NCBI GenBank assembly: GCA_028283855.1
Contig: JAPWJX010000008.1
Span: 1 to 44,558 of the forward strand
Length of the DNA stretch: 44,558 bases
Origin: Verrucomicrobium sp.
GTDB lineage: Bacteria > Verrucomicrobiota > Verrucomicrobiia > Methylacidiphilales > GAS474
Direction: 5' to 3'
Shown in pieces: positions 25,017-34,453 of the stretch. The notes below the pieces were generated by a model. The model did not search any database, was not told the DNA's origin, and saw nothing but the letters and a program-made list of their open reading frames with translations. The first letter of the stretch is position 1, and the number at the start of each line of letters is the position of its first letter. Position numbers and translations under genes: made by a program.

Positions 25017-27341
25017 ATGAGCCATCCCTCCCCTTCCGATTCATCCCATGAGGCGCATGCCTGCTGCCATCGCCACCCCAAGACGCCGGGTTCGCCCCCT
25101 CCCGCGGTGACGAAGGCCTATTTTTGCCCGATGTGCCCCGGAGTGGAGTCCGACTCTCCCGGCACCTGCCCGAAATGCGGCATGGCCCTGGAGCGCAACC
25201 CGGCCCACCGCCCCGCCGGGAAGGCGATCTATACCTGCCCGATGCATCCCGAGGTCCGACAGGACCATCCCGGCAGTTGTCCCAAGTGCGGAATGGCCCT
25301 GGAATCGGTCGTGTCGGAACCGGAGGAACCCGAGGAGAACGCCGAACTCCAAAACATGACTCGGCGGTTCTGGATCGCGGCGGGCCTGACCGTCCCGCTC
25401 CTCGTCTTGACGATGGGAGCCATACTTCCGGGGATCAGCTCGATTCCCCCTCTGGTATCGGGATGGTTCCAGTGGGCGCTCGGCACCCCGGTGGCTCTCT
25501 GGGCCGGCGCGCCGTTCTTCGTCCGGGCGTACCACTCGATCCTCCACCGTAGCCTCAACATGTTCACCCTGATCGCCCTGGGGACCGGGGCGGCCTACGC
25601 CTTCAGCCTCGTCGCCTTGGCGGCGCCCGGCCTCCTGCCCCGATCACTCGCGACAGGGGGCGCCCCTCCGCTCTACTTCGAGGCCGCGGCCGTGATCACC
25701 ACCCTGGTGCTCTTGGGACAGGTCATCGAATTTAAGGCGCGGGCCGGAACCGGCGCCGCCATTCGGGCGCTCTTGAACCTGGCCCCGAAGACCGCCCGGC
25801 GCCTTCGCAACGGCACCGAAGAAGAGGTGTCCCTCGACGCCGTCGAGGCGGGCGACATCCTTCGTGTCCGGCCGGGGGAAAAGGTTCCCGTCGACGGCCG
25901 CGTCACCGAGGGAGGCTCCTCGGTCGACGAATCGATGCTGACCGGCGAGCCGGTCCCCGTCGCCAAGGGGCCGGAGGGAACCGTCGCCGCCGGGACGATC
26001 AACGGCAGCGGCAGCTTCCTGATGCGGGCCGAGAAGGTCGGCGGGGAGACCCTGCTCGCCCAGATCGTCCAGATGGTCGCGCAGGCCCAACGAAGCCGGG
26101 CGCCGATCCAGCGGCTCGCCGACGCGGTCTCGGCGTGGTTCGTCCCCGCTGTGATCGCCGTCGCCGTCCTCACCTTCTTCGTCTGGCTCCGGTTCGGCCC
26201 GGCGCCCGCCCTCGGCTACGCCCTGATGAATGCCGTCGCCGTCCTCATCATCGCTTGCCCCTGCGCTCTGGGGCTGGCCACTCCCATGGCGGTGATGGTC
26301 GGCGTCGGGCGCGGCGCCTTGTCGGGCGTCCTCATCAAGGATGCCGAGGCCCTGGAGATCCTGGAGAAGGTCGATACCCTGGTCATCGATAAGACCGGGA
26401 CGCTGACGGAGGGGCGGCCCATGGTCGCCACCATCCAGGCCTCCCCTGGTTTCAGCGAGGACCAGGTGCTCGCCACCGCCGCCTCGCTGGAGGCCTCCAG
26501 CGAGCATCCCCTCGCCGGGGCGGTCGTCCGGGCCGCCCGAGACCGGGCGCTGGCGCTCCAGCCCGTCGAGCGATTCGAGGCCATTTCCGGAATGGGCGTC
26601 CGCGGCGCGGCGGACGGGCGCCCCATGCTGGTGGGGCGGGCGGCGCTGCTGAAGGGGGCGGGGATCACTCTCGACCAACCCTTTCTCGATGAGGCCGAAC
26701 GGCTGGAGCAGGAAGGCCACACCGTCATCTGGATCGGGGCGGGGAACTCTCTCGCCGGGTTCGTCGCCCTGACGGATCCCGTCAAGAAGACGACGCCTGA
26801 CGCCGTCGCCTCCCTCCACCGCCTGGGCCTGCGCCTGGTCATGCTCAGCGGCGACAATCGCGGCGCTGCCGAGCGTGTGGGGAAGACGGTGGGCATCGAC
26901 GAGGTGGTCGCCCAGGTCAGCCCCAAGGACAAGCAGGACCGCATCGCCGCCCTGCGGAGCCAGGGCCGCGTCGTGGCGATGGCCGGCGACGGAGTGAACG
27001 ACGCCCCCGCCCTCGCCGCCGCCGATGTCGGCATCGCGATGGGGACCGGGACCGATGTCGCCATGCACAGCGCGGGGATCACCCTGGTCAAGGGCGACCT
27101 CCGGGCCATTGCGACCGCGATTGCCCTGAGCCGGGCGACGATGCGGGCGATCCGCCAGAACCTCCTCTTCGCCTTCCTCTACAACGGCCTGGGGGTGCCG
27201 ATCGCCGCCGGGGCGCTCTACCCCGCCTTTGGTCTCCTGCTCAGTCCCATGATCGCCAGTGCCGCGATGGCCCTCAGCAGCCTTTCGGTCGTGGGGAACA
27301 GCCTTCGCCTGCGGAGGGCGGGGAAGCCCTCCGCCACATGA
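25017..27341 (+). CDS. copA: Cu(I)/Ag(I)-exporting P1B-type ATPase (CopA/SilP-like)
   Basis: A 774-residue copper-export ATPase. Instead of CxxC-type HMA domains the N-terminus has two heavy-metal-binding domains in tandem (35-59, FCPMCPG ... CPKCGMALE; 72-95, TCPMHPE ... CPKCGMALE), preceded by HACCHRH. The core has [32 protein letters not shown]. The last helices contain YNGLGVP and [15 protein letters not shown], the Tyr-Asn and Met-Ser-Ser residues that define Cu(I) transport. It removes Cu(I) from the cytoplasm, feeding the periplasmic oxidase and adaptor functions encoded nearby. It is transcribed from promoter P2 at 24749. Confidence 0.95.
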
Positions 27342-27360
27342 CGAAACCACGAAAGATTTT

Positions 27361-27391
27361 GTGAGGGGTGGGCGACCTTCTTTCGTTTAAT
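27361..27391 (+). promoter_or_regulatory. candidate ECF promoter P2 for the YHS/channel/oxidase operon
   Basis: GTGAGGGGT, 14 bases, CGTTTAAT, identical in both blocks to 24749-24779. It is 40 bases upstream of ATG 27432, just after the end of copA. Confidence 0.78.
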
Positions 27392-27431
27392 CCCCTACAC
27401 CAGCTCGAACCCCCTGGTGCCCTGGAGACTT

Positions 27432-27833
27432 ATGTTTACGAAGATGAAGAAAACCCTGCTCGGATCGACCCTCGGCCTGCTCGCCACGCTGGTGGTCAGC
27501 CTCTGGACTCCCTCCGTCCAGGCCGAAACCTATACGCCGGAGCAGAAGCAGCAGATCGAGGAACTCAAGAAGACCTATCCCCTGACGACCTGCCCGGTCT
27601 CCGGCGAGAAGCTGGACGGCGACATGGGTCCCGCCATCGACTACCTCTACACGGCGAAAGGGACCGACGGGAAGGAGACCACCCGGCTGGTCCGCTTCTG
27701 CTGCCCCTCGTGCCTGCGGAAGTTCAAGAAGGACCCCGCTCCGACGCTGAAGGTTCTCGATGACGCCGCCGCGAAGAAGGGCGGAGCCGCCGCGCCGACT
27801 CCGTCCGCCATGGACGGAATGAAGGGAGTGTAA
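27432..27833 (+). CDS. secreted YHS-like metal-binding protein (paralog 2)
   Basis: A 133-residue exported protein: signal peptide ending near SVQAE, then TCPVSGEKL and VRFCCPSCLRKF, which carry Cys pairs as in YHS/TRASH metal-binding domains, and a charged Ala/Pro tail. It is a paralog of 12934-13332, with shared YPL-x-TCPVSG, IDYLY and RLVRFCCP blocks. ATG 27432 has GGAG four bases upstream; 27444 and 27417 are alternatives. First gene after a P2 promoter and head of an operon with a DUF2231 protein, a CusC-like channel and a multicopper oxidase, so a periplasmic copper role is likely. Confidence 0.72.
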   Translation: MFTKMKKTLLGSTLGLLATLVVSLWTPSVQAETYTPEQKQQIEELKKTYPLTTCPVSGEKLDGDMGPAIDYLYTAKGTDGKETTRLVRFCCPSCLRKFKKDPAPTLKVLDDAAAKKGGAAAPTPSAMDGMKGV

Positions 27834-27852
27834 CGGCGGAACGTCGTTTGCT

Positions 27853-28353
27853 ATGCCCTTCCTGGCCCACATGGCCGACACTGCCTCCTCGGGCGGAGGA
27901 CATACCCACGCCTCTGGAGAAGTCCTCCGGTGGCTGGGCGCGTTCCATCCCGTCGTCATCCATTTCCCGATTGCCCTGCTCCTCCTGGCGGCGTTCCTCG
28001 AAGGGATCGTCGCCTGGCGGGGACCTTCCGAGAAGCTCTCCTTCGCCGCCGGCCTTTCGCTGGGGCTGGGCGCCGTCGCGGCGGTAATCGCCGCCGGTCT
28101 CGGCTGGGCCGACGCCGCCACCATGAGCATCGAGCCGGATCTCAAGCCGATCCTGACGTGGCATCGCTGGCTGGGCACCGGCGTCGCCGTCGGCTCCTGC
28201 CTCGCCGGGCTGCTTCAGCTTCGCGTTCTGCCGACGGGCCGCGGCGTCTGGGCCTATCGGATCGTCCTATGGCTCGTGGCTCTCGCGACGGCGGTCGCGG
28301 GTCATCTGGGCGGAACCCTCGTCTACGGACTCGACTATTATCCATGGCAATGA
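27853..28353 (+). CDS. DUF2231-type membrane protein
   Basis: A 166-residue protein with four transmembrane segments and the family features: FHPVVIHFPIALLLLAAF near residue 30, conserved Trp-Arg/His around WHRWLG, and the final GG-x-LVYG-x-DYYP. Relatives occur next to cytochromes and metal-resistance genes and are suspected to bind heme or metals, but their function is not established. The N-terminal GGGHTHASGE could add His ligands. Its stop overlaps the start of the outer-membrane protein (ATGA at 28350-28353). No clear ribosome binding site; ATG 27871 is an alternative start. Confidence 0.7.
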   Translation: MPFLAHMADTASSGGGHTHASGEVLRWLGAFHPVVIHFPIALLLLAAFLEGIVAWRGPSEKLSFAAGLSLGLGAVAAVIAAGLGWADAATMSIEPDLKPILTWHRWLGTGVAVGSCLAGLLQLRVLPTGRGVWAYRIVLWLVALATAVAGHLGGTLVYGLDYYPWQ

Positions 28354-29789
28354 TCTTTCCCCGCCTCCTGGCCCTTTCCCTTCCCGCCCTCGCCCTCGCG
28401 GGCTGCGCCTCGGTCGATCCTTCGGCCTCGTTCGGCAACGCCCAGGGCACCATCCGGGACCGCACCGGCCACCGCGTCGAATGGAGCCGAGGCACCCAGG
28501 AAGACCGGCAAGCCGAGCAGGCGGTGCGCGATCTCCTCAGCCGTCCCCTGACCGCCGACGCGGCGGTGCAGGTTGCCCTGCTGGGCAATCCCTCCCTCCA
28601 GGCCACCTTCGAGGAGATCGGCATCTCCCAGGCTGACTTCGTTCAGGCGGGGCTGCTGACGAACCCGAGCTTCAGCGCAATCGTCCGCTTCCCGAACGTC
28701 TCGCCGCTGGGAGCCGACCAGGAATTCTCCGTGACAGGCGACTTCCTGCAACTGTTCATCCTTCCCCTGCGGAAGAAGATGGCCGCGCTCCAACTGGAGG
28801 CGACCGAATTGGAGGTCGGGAACGAGGTTCTTTCCCTCGCCGCCGAGGTGAAGGAGGCATTTTACGCCGTCCAGGCCGACGAGCAACTCCAGACCCGGCT
28901 GGAACTGGTCAACGACATCGACAAGACGGCCGCCGAACTGGCCGAGAAGCAGCACGAGGCAGGCAACATTAACGACCTCGACCTGGTGAACCAAAAGTCG
29001 GTCTATACTGAGAGCCAAGCCGACGTGACGCAGACCCGGATCGATCTCGTCCGCGACCGGGAGAAACTGAACCGGCTCCTGGGTTGGACCGAGGAACTGC
29101 CCCGCTGGACCGTCTCCCCCCAACTTCCCGCCATTCCTGCCGATCCCCTGTCGGCCGCCGACCTGGAGAAGCGGGCCTTGGTTCAGCGGCTCGACGTCGC
29201 CGCCGCCCGGAAGCGGATCGAGGCGCTGCAAAAGTCGCTCGGAATCACCGAAGGAACCCGCCTCTTTCCCGGCGGAATCGATATCGGCGTGGACACGGAG
29301 AAGAATCCCGACCGCTCCCGCGTCACCGGCCCCTCGATCGACGTCGAGCTTCCGATCTTCGATCAGGGACAGGCCCGGGTGGCCACGCTTCAGGCCCAGC
29401 TCCGGCAAGCCCAAGACCGTTTGGCCGCGCTGGCCATCGATGTCCGCTCCGAGATCCGTGAAAACCGGGAAATCCTGGAGGGCCGCCGGCAGCTCGCCGA
29501 CACCTATCGCCAGACCTTGCTCCCCCAGCGGGTCAGCATCCTCAAGCTGTCCCAGGAGCAATACAACTTCATGCTGAAAGGCAGCTACGACCTCCTGCTT
29601 GCCAAGCAGCAGGAAATCGGCGCCGAGCGCGCCTACATCCAGACGTGGCGCGACTATTGGACGGCCCGAGCCGAGTTGGAGAAGGCGGTCGGCGGCTTCC
29701 TGCCTGTCCCCGCCGCCGCCGAGGCGAAACAAACCGATCCGGTCGCCGCCGCCTCCGCCGCCCCGGCGCCGATGAACATGAAACCCTAG
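28350..29789 (+). CDS. TolC-family outer-membrane lipoprotein channel (CusC-like)
   Basis: A 479-residue outer-membrane efflux protein with lipobox LALAGC (mature Cys about residue 20) followed by two OEP repeats rich in long helices (AADAAVQ-type start LTADAAVQVALLGNPSLQAT in character; the second at AARKRIEALQKSLGI). It is the kind of channel that pairs with CusBA, yet cusBA lies 18 kb away on the other strand under another candidate promoter class. I chose ATG 28350 because it is coupled to the DUF2231 stop; ATG 28344 adds two residues. The Pro/Ala-rich C-terminus ends in MNMKP. Confidence 0.85.
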   Translation: MIFPRLLALSLPALALAGCASVDPSASFGNAQGTIRDRTGHRVEWSRGTQEDRQAEQAVRDLLSRPLTADAAVQVALLGNPSLQATFEEIGISQADFVQAGLLTNPSFSAIVRFPNVSPLGADQEFSVTGDFLQLFILPLRKKMAALQLEATELEVGNEVLSLAAEVKEAFYAVQADEQLQTRLELVNDIDKTAAELAEKQHEAGNINDLDLVNQKSVYTESQADVTQTRIDLVRDREKLNRLLGWTEELPRWTVSPQLPAIPADPLSAADLEKRALVQRLDVAAARKRIEALQKSLGITEGTRLFPGGIDIGVDTEKNPDRSRVTGPSIDVELPIFDQGQARVATLQAQLRQAQDRLAALAIDVRSEIRENREILEGRRQLADTYRQTLLPQRVSILKLSQEQYNFMLKGSYDLLLAKQQEIGAERAYIQTWRDYWTARAELEKAVGGFLPVPAAAEAKQTDPVAAASAAPAPMNMKP

Positions 29790-29794
29790 ACCCC

Positions 29795-31060
29795 ATGAGC
29801 CTATCCCGCCGCCAGCTTCTCGCCCGCACCGGAATCGCCGCTGCCGGAACCGCCTTCTTCGGGCGCGTCCAGTCGGCCCTCGCCGCGATCTCCGGCACCG
29901 CCGACACGCCTGGGACCGTCGCCGGGGACGGCTCCTACACGCCGGTCGTCACCCCCAACGGCTCGACCCTACCCTGGGTGATGAAGGACGGCGTGAAGGA
30001 ATTCCACCTCGTCGCCGAACCGGTGAAGCGGGAGTTCGCTCCCGGCATGATGGTGAATTGCTGGGGCTACAATGGCTCGACGCCCGGCCCGACCATCGAG
30101 GCGGTCGAGGGCGATCGGGTCCGCATCCTGGTCACGAACAAGCTGCCCGAATCGACATCGGTCCATTGGCACGGCATCCTCACCCCGAACGGCATGGATG
30201 GCGTCGGCGGCCTGACCCAGAAGCACATCGAGCCGGACGAGACCTATGCCTACGAGTTCACCCTCCGGCAGCACGGCACTTACATGTACCATCCCCATTC
30301 GGACGAGATGGTGCAGATGGCGCTGGGGATGATGGGCTTCTTCATCATCCATCCCAAGGGAGGGCCGAAGGTGGACCGGGACTTCGCGATCTTCCTCATG
30401 GAGTGGGCGGTCAATCCGGGGACCTTCACGCCGAATCCCAGCATCATGACCGATTTCAACAACTTCACCTTCAACAGCCGCGTCTACCCTGGAACCGCCC
30501 CCCTGATCGTGAAGCTGAACCAGAAAGTCCGCGTCCGGATCGCCAACCTGAGCATGGACAACCATCCCATCCACATCCATGGCCACCGCTGGTGGGTGAC
30601 GGAGACCGATGGGGGACAGATCCCGAAGTCGGCGTGGTGGCCGGAGACCAGCGTCGACGTCGCCCCCGGCACCACGCGCACGATGGAATTCGTCGCCGAC
30701 AACCCCGGCGACTGGGCGCTCCACTGCCACAAGACCCACCACGCGATGAACGCGATGAGCCACGACATTCCCAATCTGCTGGGGGTCGATCAGGATGCCG
30801 TGACGAAGAAGATCAAGAAGCTCGTTCCCGGCTACATGGACATGGGCAGCGATGGCATGGGTGACATGGCCGAAATGCAGATGAAGGGACCGAAAAACAC
30901 TCTGCCCATGATGACCGGCACCGGACCGTTCGGGCCCATCGAGATGGGGGGCATGTTCACTGTCCTCAAGGTCCGTGAAAGCCTGGCTAGCTACGACGAT
31001 CCCGGGTGGTACCAGCACCCAGCCGGAACGGTCGCTCAGGCCGTGAAAAGCGTTAGCTGA
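29795..31060 (+). CDS. Tat-exported multicopper oxidase (copper detoxification)
   Basis: A 421-residue periplasmic cupredoxin-type oxidase. The Tat signal is SRRQLLARTG. All four copper-ligand blocks are present: HWHG (His124, His126), HPHS (His166, His168), HPIHIHGH and HCHKTHHAMNAM, the last with the type-1 Cys, His and axial Met at canonical spacing. Met-rich loops near the C-terminus (DMGSDGMGDMAEMQM) suggest Cu(I) oxidation as in CueO/CopA-type enzymes. Shorter than CueO (about 516), closer to two-domain-plus or compact oxidases. It is last in the operon from the P2 promoter at 27361 and converges with the ArsR-type gene. Confidence 0.92.
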   Translation: MSLSRRQLLARTGIAAAGTAFFGRVQSALAAISGTADTPGTVAGDGSYTPVVTPNGSTLPWVMKDGVKEFHLVAEPVKREFAPGMMVNCWGYNGSTPGPTIEAVEGDRVRILVTNKLPESTSVHWHGILTPNGMDGVGGLTQKHIEPDETYAYEFTLRQHGTYMYHPHSDEMVQMALGMMGFFIIHPKGGPKVDRDFAIFLMEWAVNPGTFTPNPSIMTDFNNFTFNSRVYPGTAPLIVKLNQKVRVRIANLSMDNHPIHIHGHRWWVTETDGGQIPKSAWWPETSVDVAPGTTRTMEFVADNPGDWALHCHKTHHAMNAMSHDIPNLLGVDQDAVTKKIKKLVPGYMDMGSDGMGDMAEMQMKGPKNTLPMMTGTGPFGPIEMGGMFTVLKVRESLASYDDPGWYQHPAGTVAQAVKSVS

Positions 31061-31068
31061 CGGGGTTC

Positions 31069-31091
31069 AATCTTCCTTCCCCCGAAAGATT
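31069..31091 (+). terminator. weak stem-loop after the multicopper oxidase
   Basis: AATCTT (31069-31074) pairs with AAGATT (31086-31091) across 11 bases, followed by AAAAGG on plus and lying over the stop codon of the convergent ArsR-type gene. Too short and lacking a T run on the plus strand to be a confident terminator. Confidence 0.25.
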
Positions 31092-31512
31092 AAAAGGTTG
31101 TCGCTCTAGGACGATCTCCCTTTTTCAGAGCTTGGATCGGACGGATTCCGTAGCCGTTGGCGATATCGGTCAGCCAGCCGTTCTTCGCGAGGAAGCGGTA
31201 GAGCTTCTCCTTGTCCTTGATGAACATGGGGATCGCCCGGACGCAATCGCGGAGGCAGACTAGGTTTTGCTCCACCTCGGGCTCGGCGGTCAGGGGGAGG
31301 TGGTAGATCATCATGTTCCGGTGGCGCTTGGCCTCCACCATGCCCCGGGTGCGGAGGTAGCCCAGGTGCTTGGAGATCTGGACCTGGGGGACCCCCATGA
31401 TCTCCTGGAGATGGTTGACGCAGAGGGGGCCGTCGTTGAGGAGGCTGAGGATGCGCAGCCGCGTCTCGTCGGTGAGGCAGGCGTAGATCTGGGTGAGGCG
31501 GCGGCTTTGCAA
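31090..31512 (-). CDS. ArsR-family transcriptional regulator
   Basis: A 140-residue winged-helix repressor. The core is DETRLRILSLLNDGPLCVNHL followed by the recognition region QVQISKHLGYLRTRGMV and the wing RHRNMMIYHL. Cys residues in PLCVNHL and in NLVCLRDC could form a metal or redox site, but the classical ELCVCDL motif of ArsR/SmtB is reduced to one Cys. The start is TTG 31512, supported by AGGAG five bases upstream; no ATG fits. Its target is not obvious: it is convergent to the copper operon and downstream of the Sia/PIN genes. Confidence 0.82.
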   Translation of the reverse strand: MQSRRLTQIYACLTDETRLRILSLLNDGPLCVNHLQEIMGVPQVQISKHLGYLRTRGMVEAKRHRNMMIYHLPLTAEPEVEQNLVCLRDCVRAIPMFIKDKEKLYRFLAKNGWLTDIANGYGIRPIQALKKGDRPRATTF

Positions 31513-31568: not shown

Positions 31569-32153
31569 TCAGACGAACGTCTCGATCTCGTGCTGGAGTT
31601 CCCGCAGGAGATAGAGGTGGAGGTCGGGCTGGCGGGTGTCGGGGCGGCCGAAGCGGCGGCAGATCGTCTCGAAGTGCTGGCGGGTGAAGAGGAGCAACTG
31701 GCGGTGGCTGGTGCAGAGGGCGACCGAGCCGCTGTCCCGCAATCCCACATAGGCGAGGTGTCCGACGACCTCGGCGTCGGTCGGGGAGAGGTCCCCCACC
31801 CCGAGGGCGCGCTGGTCCCGCAGGCGCCGCGCCATTTTGAGGTAGGGCTCGTAGCCGGGCCAGTTTCCGGGGCGAAGGAGGGCCGCCGCGCGGGACACGT
31901 CGTAGATTTTCTGCCGGAGCGGTTCCAGCCGGCGCCCGAGGATGTGGTCGTCGATCCCGCCCGCGATCTCCCCATGGACCGCCTCGGTGAGGGTGATGTT
32001 CGGGTGACGGCGGACCAGCCCTTCCAGGAACGACAGGTAGGCCGTGTCCCTCTCCAAGATCTCGGTACGGTGCCGGAAGATCGATGTGTCGATCAGGACA
32101 TGGTCGTGGCTGGAGGCGATCTCCTCCAACTGACCCTCCATCTTGAGGACCAC
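31569..32153 (-). CDS. PIN-like domain protein linked to the Sia switch
   Basis: A 194-residue soluble protein. PIN-fold acids appear in VLIDTSIF (first Asp), LTEAVHGEI (Glu) and LSPTDAEVVGHLAYV (Asp); the usual fourth position, T-x-D in the last strand, reads CTSHRQLL instead, so the metal site may be altered. PIN domains are mostly Mg-dependent ribonucleases; here activity is uncertain. It is the last gene of the siaA-siaB-siaC series, 29 bases after siaC, where Pseudomonas has the diguanylate cyclase siaD. GTG 32153 is the first possible start; ATG 32141 is an alternative. Assignment to PIN is by motif reading only. Confidence 0.55.
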   Translation of the reverse strand: MVLKMEGQLEEIASSHDHVLIDTSIFRHRTEILERDTAYLSFLEGLVRRHPNITLTEAVHGEIAGGIDDHILGRRLEPLRQKIYDVSRAAALLRPGNWPGYEPYLKMARRLRDQRALGVGDLSPTDAEVVGHLAYVGLRDSGSVALCTSHRQLLLFTRQHFETICRRFGRPDTRQPDLHLYLLRELQHEIETFV

Positions 32154-32182
32154 GTCTTCGGCGCTCGTGGCATCCCCCTTCT

Positions 32183-32563
32183 TCAGCGGCTCTCCGGCAG
32201 GACCTCGAACGGAACGGTGAGGTCGGTGCGGTAGTCGAGGCCGTTGTCCCGCATGTCCTCGTCGTCCTCGGCGTAGAGCCAGTTCACCTTCACGTTCTTG
32301 TAGTGCTGATGGTGCCGATCGAGGATCTCCAGAAGTTCCAGGATGCTCTTCGACGAACTGGTGTTGAAGTAGTCGAGACGGAAGTTCGCGGTGAAGGGGC
32401 CGTCCGACATCGCCAGCATCTCCAGAAGACGCTTCTTCACAGGCAGGAAGAACGCCACCGAGTTCTCCGGGTAGGACAGCCCCGACAACTCGAAAAGCCC
32501 CTTCTCGGGGACAAACGTGACTTTCGGCGTCGTGGCGGACGGATCAATGCACACTGCTTCCAT
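32183..32563 (-). CDS. siaC: SiaC-family regulatory phosphoprotein (DUF1987)
   Basis: A 126-residue protein of the SiaC family. The motif DYFNTSSSKSILELLEIL puts the phosphorylatable Thr at residue 68, the same position as Thr68 of Pseudomonas aeruginosa SiaC, which SiaB phosphorylates and SiaA dephosphorylates. The N-terminal block GLFELSGLSYPENSVAFF is also typical. In Pseudomonas, unphosphorylated SiaC activates SiaD to make c-di-GMP. No SiaD is present here, so its output partner must differ. It has a strong AGGAGG ribosome site, and its first 20 bases overlap the end of siaB. Confidence 0.9.
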   Translation of the reverse strand: MEAVCIDPSATTPKVTFVPEKGLFELSGLSYPENSVAFFLPVKKRLLEMLAMSDGPFTANFRLDYFNTSSSKSILELLEILDRHHQHYKNVKVNWLYAEDDEDMRDNGLDYRTDLTVPFEVLPESR

Positions 32564-33200
32564 CGGGAACCTCCTTGGGATTGAATTTGTTGATCTTGGC
32601 GGACAGGGAGAAAAATGAGGCGTCGGCGTCGACGGGAACGAAGGCGAACGTCAGCGGGTTCTGGGACTTCTTCGCAATGTCGATGAAGCCCAGACCGGCC
32701 CCCTTCGAGTCGGCCGGGCGGTCCTTCTTCCGCTCCTGGCTGTAGTAGGCTCGCAGCCCGTCGGGGCCGAGGGTGTTGACGTACCGGCAGCGCTCCTCGA
32801 TGACCGGCACGCGGTCGTTCCGAATCATGTTCCCGGAACTGACGATGAACTGGTCGTCGGTCTGCTGGACCACGATCATCCCCACCCCCACATCCCGACC
32901 CTGCTGGGGCAGGAACTCCCGCTCGTGGGAGTAGTTGAGGACGTTCTGGGTCATCTCGATGACGATGGCGAAGAGCCGCCTCATCGCGCCGCCGTCCGCC
33001 CCCTCGGCGGCGGCGATAGGGCCGCGAACCAGGTCGCCGATCTCGACGAGCGTCTCCTGGAGCATCGCCCCCTTGAAGGCGAAGACGATCCGGCTGTCCC
33101 GGACCTTCTGGTAGTAGCGGAACATGCTCTCCCCTTGGATCAGAACGTCCTGCTCCTCCGCGAGGGTCTCGGCTTGGGCCCCGAAGGCGAAGCGGCTCAT
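32544..33200 (-). CDS. siaB: SiaB-family protein kinase (DUF6272)
   Basis: A 218-residue GHKL-type ATP-binding protein that should phosphorylate SiaC. The N-box is IEMTQNVLNYSHE and the glycine box SKGAGLGFIDIAKKS; FAFKGAMLQETLVEIGDL precedes them as in the family. It overlaps siaA by four bases (ATGA, 33197-33200) and siaC by 20 bases, so the three proteins are made together. It is related to anti-sigma kinases of the RsbW type but belongs to the SiaB branch by neighbours and by family features. Confidence 0.88.
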   Translation of the reverse strand: MSRFAFGAQAETLAEEQDVLIQGESMFRYYQKVRDSRIVFAFKGAMLQETLVEIGDLVRGPIAAAEGADGGAMRRLFAIVIEMTQNVLNYSHEREFLPQQGRDVGVGMIVVQQTDDQFIVSSGNMIRNDRVPVIEERCRYVNTLGPDGLRAYYSQERKKDRPADSKGAGLGFIDIAKKSQNPLTFAFVPVDADASFFSLSAKINKFNPKEVPDGSSVH

Positions 33201-34453
33201 TTTCGACTTCCCTTGAGATGGAACCCCAGGAGGGCGATGTCGTCCCGCTGCGGCGCCCCGGCCTGGTGGTCGTCGAGGACCTTCTCGAAGGCGGCCTTCT
33301 GCTCGCCGAGGCTGCGGCTCGCCAACTGATACAGCGCCTCGCGGACGCGGCGCGACCCGAGCTTCTTCCCCTCAGGGTTCGGCTGGTCGCCCACGCCGTC
33401 GGAGCAGAGGTAGTAGGTCGTCCCGTCCTCGATTCGGAGGGAGAGGGTGGCGAACTCGCGCTTGGCCTCCTTCTGGGTTCCGCCGATCGGCTTCCGGTCC
33501 CCCTTGTGCTCGTGGAACTGGCCCGCAGCGTCGACACTGTAGAGCGGGCGGTTCGCCCCGGCGAAGAGGAGTTCCCCGGAGGCGGGATTGACCACGCAGA
33601 GGCCGACCTCCATGCCGTCGTGGGCCGAGTCGTTCCCGGTTTCCTGGCACAGGCTGTCGCGGACCCCCTTGTGCAGCTCCTCCAGGATGATTCCGGGATC
33701 GGTGTAGCCGCGCTGGGAGACGATGTCGTTGAGGTGGCCGTGCCCGATCAGCGACATGAAGGCGCCGGGGACGCCGTGGCCGGTGCAGTCGGCGACCGCC
33801 ACGTAGATGCGGTCGTTCGCCTCCCGAATCCAATAGAAGTCGCCCGAGACGATGTCCCGAGGCCGGAAGACAACGAAGTGCTCCAGGTGGATCGGCAAGG
33901 GGCGGTCGGGGTTGTAGAGCATCGAGCGCTGGATGCGCTCGGCGTAGAGGATGCTGTCGTGGACCTGCTTGTTCTTCTCCTCGACCTCGACCATCGCCAT
34001 CCCGAGGAGTTCCGACTGGGCCTGCATCAGCTCGTGGAAGTCGACGATCCGGTAGCCGGCGACGGGATGCCGGTAGACCACGGGGTCGTAGGAGACGTGG
34101 AGGGGCCGCTCCAGCCCCTTCCGCACCACCTCGGCGACCGAGGCGTCGGGCGCGACCACGAACGGCGGCAGGTTGATGTGCTTCAGCATCCGTTCCACGG
34201 GGCGGACGCCATAGATCTCCTGCCCCATCCGTCCGCTCAGGACCTGGTAGTAGCTCGACCGGGAGATCGTCCCCACCAGCTCCCCATCATGCAGGACCAG
34301 GATGCCCGGAAGCTTCGCATTCTTCTTGAACTCCCCGTTGAGCCGGTCGCCCGGCGTCTTGTCGGAAACCGCCACGTCAAAGAACGGGAGATCGGCGATA
34401 CTGCGGGAGACCGAACTATGGGAGGCGGCGGGGATCGGGGCGAGGGCGGTCAT
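33197..34453 (-). CDS. siaA: SiaA-like PP2C phosphatase with N-terminal CBS-like domains
   Basis: A 418-residue cytoplasmic SpoIIE/PP2C-type phosphatase. Metal-binding Asp residues lie in IVSGDFYW, VAVADCTGHGVPGAFMS, LCSDGVGDQPN and QRDDIALLGF. Residues about 20-150 resemble a CBS pair (LPGILVLHDGELVGTISR; PPFVVAPDASVAEVVRKGL), followed by a coiled linker (VEEKNKQVHDSILYAERIQR). Pseudomonas SiaA instead has a membrane sensor with a HAMP domain, so the input here is probably a cytoplasmic ligand. It should dephosphorylate SiaC. The 107-base gap from phoU is AT-rich with TATATA and TACAAT-like hexamers and may hold its promoter. Confidence 0.88.
   Translation of the reverse strand: MTALAPIPAASHSSVSRSIADLPFFDVAVSDKTPGDRLNGEFKKNAKLPGILVLHDGELVGTISRSSYYQVLSGRMGQEIYGVRPVERMLKHINLPPFVVAPDASVAEVVRKGLERPLHVSYDPVVYRHPVAGYRIVDFHELMQAQSELLGMAMVEVEEKNKQVHDSILYAERIQRSMLYNPDRPLPIHLEHFVVFRPRDIVSGDFYWIREANDRIYVAVADCTGHGVPGAFMSLIGHGHLNDIVSQRGYTDPGIILEELHKGVRDSLCQETGNDSAHDGMEVGLCVVNPASGELLFAGANRPLYSVDAAGQFHEHKGDRKPIGGTQKEAKREFATLSLRIEDGTTYYLCSDGVGDQPNPEGKKLGSRRVREALYQLASRSLGEQKAAFEKVLDDHQAGAPQRDDIALLGFHLKGSRK

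Follow-up and report, generated by a model that had tools for sequence, protein, structure and literature searches.

The 44,558-nucleotide stretch of Verrucomicrobium sp. DNA analysed here (contig JAPWJX010000008.1, hereafter the window) encodes a real Sia phosphoswitch, complete in its genes and catalytic residues. We think it probable that this is a soluble Sia partner switch with a CBS-like input, that its client is not encoded beside the switch, and that the PIN-like gene downstream of siaC is a lineage-specific neighbour. The features concerned are as follows.

33197-34453, minus strand: siaA, plausible CBS-like N-terminal region (about residues 17-150) and PP2C/SpoIIE phosphatase domain (214-412), without a membrane domain
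32544-33200, minus strand: siaB, SiaB family protein kinase (DUF6272)
32183-32563, minus strand: siaC, STAS-like phosphoprotein with Thr68 within FNTSSSK
31569-32153, minus strand: PIN-like ORF, orphan protein of 194 aa with a GTG start, 29 bp downstream of siaC
31090-31512, minus strand: ArsR/SmtB-family regulator (HTH_5, 1.8e-10; NCBIfam HTH_metalloreg above its cut-off), the next gene downstream of the PIN-like ORF

The siaA, siaB and siaC genes are intact and overlap (siaA and siaB by 4 bases, siaB and siaC by 20 bases), and both the open reading frames and the family searches against Pfam and NCBIfam agree in this with the original prediction, as does the presence of the catalytic boxes of SiaA and SiaB. 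SiaA is recognised by Pfam SpoIIE/PP2C (E 3.1e-19), and it scores 215 bits against the PP2C portion of the NCBIfam SiaA model. Its acidic PP2C residues are kept (SGD205, D222, SDG352, RDD405) and are invariant with the homologues of two other genomes of the order, G010 and G039; they correspond to the acidic active-site residues that PMC7647112 describes. The metal-binding acids of the phosphatase, as expected of a Sia partner switch, are intact. SiaB matches DUF6272 (1.6e-39), scores 167 bits (cut-off 85) against SiaB_fam_kinase, the NCBIfam subfamily model of SiaB family kinases, and retains the N-box (EMTQN) and the G-box (KGAGLG). SiaC belongs to the Pfam family SiaC/DUF1987 (E 1.5e-35) and matches the P. 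aeruginosa SiaC structures at 1.4e-13; the threonine of its FNTSSSK motif aligns with the phospho-acceptor T68 of the P. aeruginosa protein, and the conservation of Thr68 claimed beforehand is therefore upheld by the alignment. The phospho-acceptor may be a serine in some members of the family, as SiaC proteins encoded at two other surveyed loci (L012:9621-10022, genome G202, and L108:4977-5387) have Ser in place of Thr68 (FNSSSSK and FNSSSAK).

The window shares with the SiaABCD system of P. aeruginosa (PMC7647112, PMC8457831) the gene order A-B-C, a PP2C phosphatase, a SiaB-family kinase and Thr68 in NTSS. It differs in the CBS-like soluble N-terminus of SiaA, which stands where P. aeruginosa has its sensor region, in the lack of siaD, and in that SiaA, SiaB and SiaC all fall below the strict P. 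aeruginosa-type equivalog cut-offs of NCBIfam. No siaD adjoins siaABC, and the gene after siaC does not encode a GGDEF protein. The assembly (2.56 Mb, 95.6% complete) contains one SiaC and one detected GGDEF, which sits on another contig. The reported absence of siaD from the locus stands.

The proposal that SiaA has CBS-like domains instead of a membrane sensor fared less evenly. A membrane domain is indeed missing, but the CBS call is weak: one Pfam CBS match was found in the N-terminus and it is sub-threshold (E 0.0016, 19.2 vs 24 bits), a profile search against the PDB gave a non-significant CBS match (E 1.3), and no CBS match was obtained at E 0.01 in the homologues of G010 and G039. A soluble, CBS-like input region is plausible from these comparisons. 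The N-terminal region as such is common to the window, G010 and G039 (phmmer 3.3e-24 and 3.9e-17), and the CBS-like soluble SiaA is accordingly a variant common to three genomes of the order. SiaC itself is confined to these three among the 62 genomes of the order, and was found in 4 of the 387 sampled genomes of the phylum, the window genome included. The three SiaC proteins form one clade (100/85), with long branches that make this support rough. The modules of G010 and G039 resemble that of the window in gene order, SiaA architecture and a SiaC about 44% identical, and differ from it in having no PIN-like gene; the operon of G010 ends with siaC, beyond which lies a peptidase gene in convergent orientation.

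Another type of module occurs in two genomes of the same class (G185 and G102). It shares the siaABC core with the window and differs in that its SiaA-type PP2C (L011:10801-12960 and L013:10743-12887) is fused to a complete ammonium transporter domain (Pfam Ammonium_transp, E about 1e-114), and in that the fused gene is followed by siaB, siaC and a histidine kinase bearing the docking helix described below. This is likely an ammonium-sensing Sia module.

In the preferred reading of the window, SiaA, as a soluble protein, would sense a signal through its CBS-like region, and its PP2C domain would take the phosphate off SiaC Thr68, while SiaB would phosphorylate SiaC. By analogy with P. aeruginosa, unphosphorylated SiaC alone should bind the client, via the face formed by Y65, N67, T68 and S69. 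The client would be non-canonical and act in trans, or would have escaped the searches.

In the nearest loci, in Verrucomicrobiota and on plasmids, the likely effectors encoded after siaC comprise GGDEF proteins, histidine kinases, GAF-class III cyclases and small membrane proteins. Several same-strand neighbours of siaC are plainly unrelated, such as a CoaE-like kinase in Crocinitomix. The 80 genome_contigs loci closest to the window SiaC form a sample that is mostly Bacteroidota and hence biased. Of these, 77 were classified by an automatic choice of ORFs, in which L018 at least was overlooked: siaC was last or faced a convergent gene in 53, had a same-strand neighbour in 21 and ran off the contig end in 3. 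None of the 77 had the PIN-like gene. The siaBC pair without siaD is common, above all in Bacteroidota, and in this Bacteroidota-dominated sample the most frequent layout is a siaC with no effector gene beside it. The Bacteroidota pairs are like the window in that most sampled loci lack an adjacent docking-helix effector; unlike the window, they often have a non-adjacent SiaA, and their SiaC belongs to a different clade.

Adjacent effectors of different classes have a common N-terminal helix, with a core that is mostly [IVL][SGA]Dxx[QE]. Helix-bearing effectors just after siaC include those at L016:6382-7863, L037:1840-3294, L041:6434-7255, L104:5396-7107, L105:5398-6123 and L153:3399-4112, among others. 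The core of the helix is in register with I81-S82-D83-R84-Y85-Q86 of SiaD, in which S82 and Q86 contact T68 of SiaC in the crystal structure (PMC8457831). A helix profile of six effectors compared with the PDB recovered SiaD 59-100 in the expected register with a non-significant E of 0.25, so that the register, not the score, carries the argument. A further profile (A3), built from eleven helices with SiaD included, was run on the 4164 ORFs of the siaC-survey loci. Its members scored 25-72 bits, and it matched held-out proteins at L018, L041 (second gene), L067, L073, L087, L088, L107, L114 and L151-L154; nearly all matches lie within about 1.5 kb downstream of a siaC. From these sequences we infer that the effector helices may be homologous to the SiaC-binding stalk of SiaD; SiaC binding has been shown for SiaD only. 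SiaC-type switches are widespread, and among the papers found P. aeruginosa is the only case with an established output. From the survey a simple rule for finding outputs may be proposed, namely the docking helix shared across very different effector types. It also delimits a group of switches without an adjacent docking-helix effector, that of the window included, whose clients are to be sought elsewhere.

Four small proteins with the docking helix (L067:6882-7355, L087:4477-4956, L088:6847-7323 and L073:6383-6865) have a hydrophobic C-terminal segment and no known catalytic domain. Their genes lie downstream of siaC, and at three of the four loci the siaB-siaC pair ahead of them is duplicated; they are possibly membrane-anchored SiaC clients. 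Another docking-helix protein, L115 (G446:C332:6849-6965, in an open frame of 548 aa), has no siaC in its short locus; its genome belongs to the Leptospiraceae and has a siaC elsewhere, which makes the protein a candidate client in trans.

The PIN-like protein of the window lacks the docking helix (1.0 bit against A3). Searches of whole genomes with the helix profiles gave strong matches in control genomes but nothing in the window genome or in G039, and in G010 the matches did not exceed chance; these searches begin with a loose first look, which could miss a divergent helix. The window switch thus falls into the group without a recognisable adjacent client. No recognisable client stands beside the switch, and the assembly, 95.6% complete, yielded no docking-helix protein; this is why a non-canonical client in trans, or a missed one, is proposed. 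A client could also lack the stalk and bind SiaC by another surface.

An output in c-di-GMP through the single REC-GGDEF protein encoded elsewhere in the genome appears very improbable. The protein keeps its GGDEF motif and is the only GGDEF protein found in the assembly, but it has an input of its own in the receiver domain and lies on a different contig from the switch. It also lacks the docking helix (-0.7 bit against A3), and is for this reason not an obvious output either.

A docking-helix effector would not be needed if the locus worked as a classical anti-sigma partner switch, in which SiaB would sequester a sigma factor or other regulator and non-phosphorylated SiaC would free it. SiaC is similar to antagonists of anti-sigma factors, and the literature treats the Sia proteins as a partner switch in which SiaB takes the part of the anti-sigma kinase (PMC7647112). 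The frequency of siaC without an adjacent effector in the sample above also fits this scheme. The operon, however, contains no sigma factor gene, and we regard the scheme as unlikely.

The PIN-like ORF was the basis of the original prediction that SiaC controls a PIN-like protein, described as having three of four expected acids, in the place of SiaD. The ORF is very probably a real gene, its GC3 of 0.91 being similar to that of neighbouring genes, and three candidate acids are present among PIN-type motifs picked out by eye only: D22 (VLIDTS), E57/E62 (TEAVHGEI) and D126 (PTDAEVV). Its identity as a PIN protein, on the other hand, stays at the level of motifs. The fourth acid site is Ser/His (CTSHRQ). 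Comparison with Pfam, NCBIfam, PHROGs, PADLOC and the PDB gave no match, and no PIN family appeared in Pfam, NCBIfam, PHROGs or the PDB up to E 10 or 1; the single-sequence AlphaFold2 model has a pLDDT of 39. The protein is an orphan, possibly of PIN type. A VapC-type PIN profile built from PINs of relatives scored 6.2 bits, above 200 shuffles, and was rejected: the alignment is out of register with the catalytic acids, and the score was therefore not counted as support.

Protein comparison with 60 genomes of the order, 387 of the phylum, 55 SiaC-bearing genomes, plasmids and phages yielded no credible homologue, G010 and G039 having none. One weak match, in the phylum genome G298 (E 5e-4), sits in a Wzc-type exopolysaccharide protein, and the best of three matches in the SiaC-bearing genomes (E 0.03-0.06) falls at a peroxiredoxin-like gene. 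Exact-short-peptide scans of genome and viral contigs are blind to distant relatives and carry little weight. Beside siaABC, the PIN-like gene was found in no relative by the neighbourhood survey, a result that goes against the original prediction.

What connects the PIN-like gene with the switch is its position: it is close to siaC and co-directional with it, a point against the preferred reading. The ORF is likely co-transcribed with siaC, given its 29-bp spacing on the same strand, and neither a promoter nor a terminator was detected between the two. The two congeners searched have neither the gene nor SiaC, a joint absence that fits a shared gain or loss. If the switch acted through the PIN-like protein, one phospho-form of SiaC would bind it and so control RNA cleavage or binding; besides the spacing, strand and joint absence, this draws on D22, E57 and D126 and on the fact that effectors, where present, normally come directly after siaC. 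Against it stand the absence of the gene from the sister modules of G010 and G039 and from the 55 SiaC-bearing genomes, the missing docking helix, the failure of every profile library to detect a PIN fold together with the low pLDDT, and the Ser/His at the fourth site. We hold this output to be unlikely. A further idea is that SiaC has gained a new kind of client, an orphan PIN-like protein with nuclease or RNA-binding function to which it would bind in spite of the missing docking helix, and that a c-di-GMP-type phosphoswitch has thereby been turned to RNA control; this is quite unlikely. A literature search that fell mostly short of subscription papers found no description of a Sia-PIN module or of a shared SiaC-docking helix. 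A single locus is insufficient to show a functional link between siaC and the PIN-like gene, for which the role of client is improbable.

On its PIN-like side the switch adjoins a copper/metal block (window 25017-31512) with a P-type ATPase, an outer-membrane efflux-like protein, a multicopper-oxidase-like protein and the ArsR regulator. The ArsR/SmtB-family regulator is probably part of this block and not of the Sia switch. The opposite flank of the switch is occupied by phoU and pst genes.
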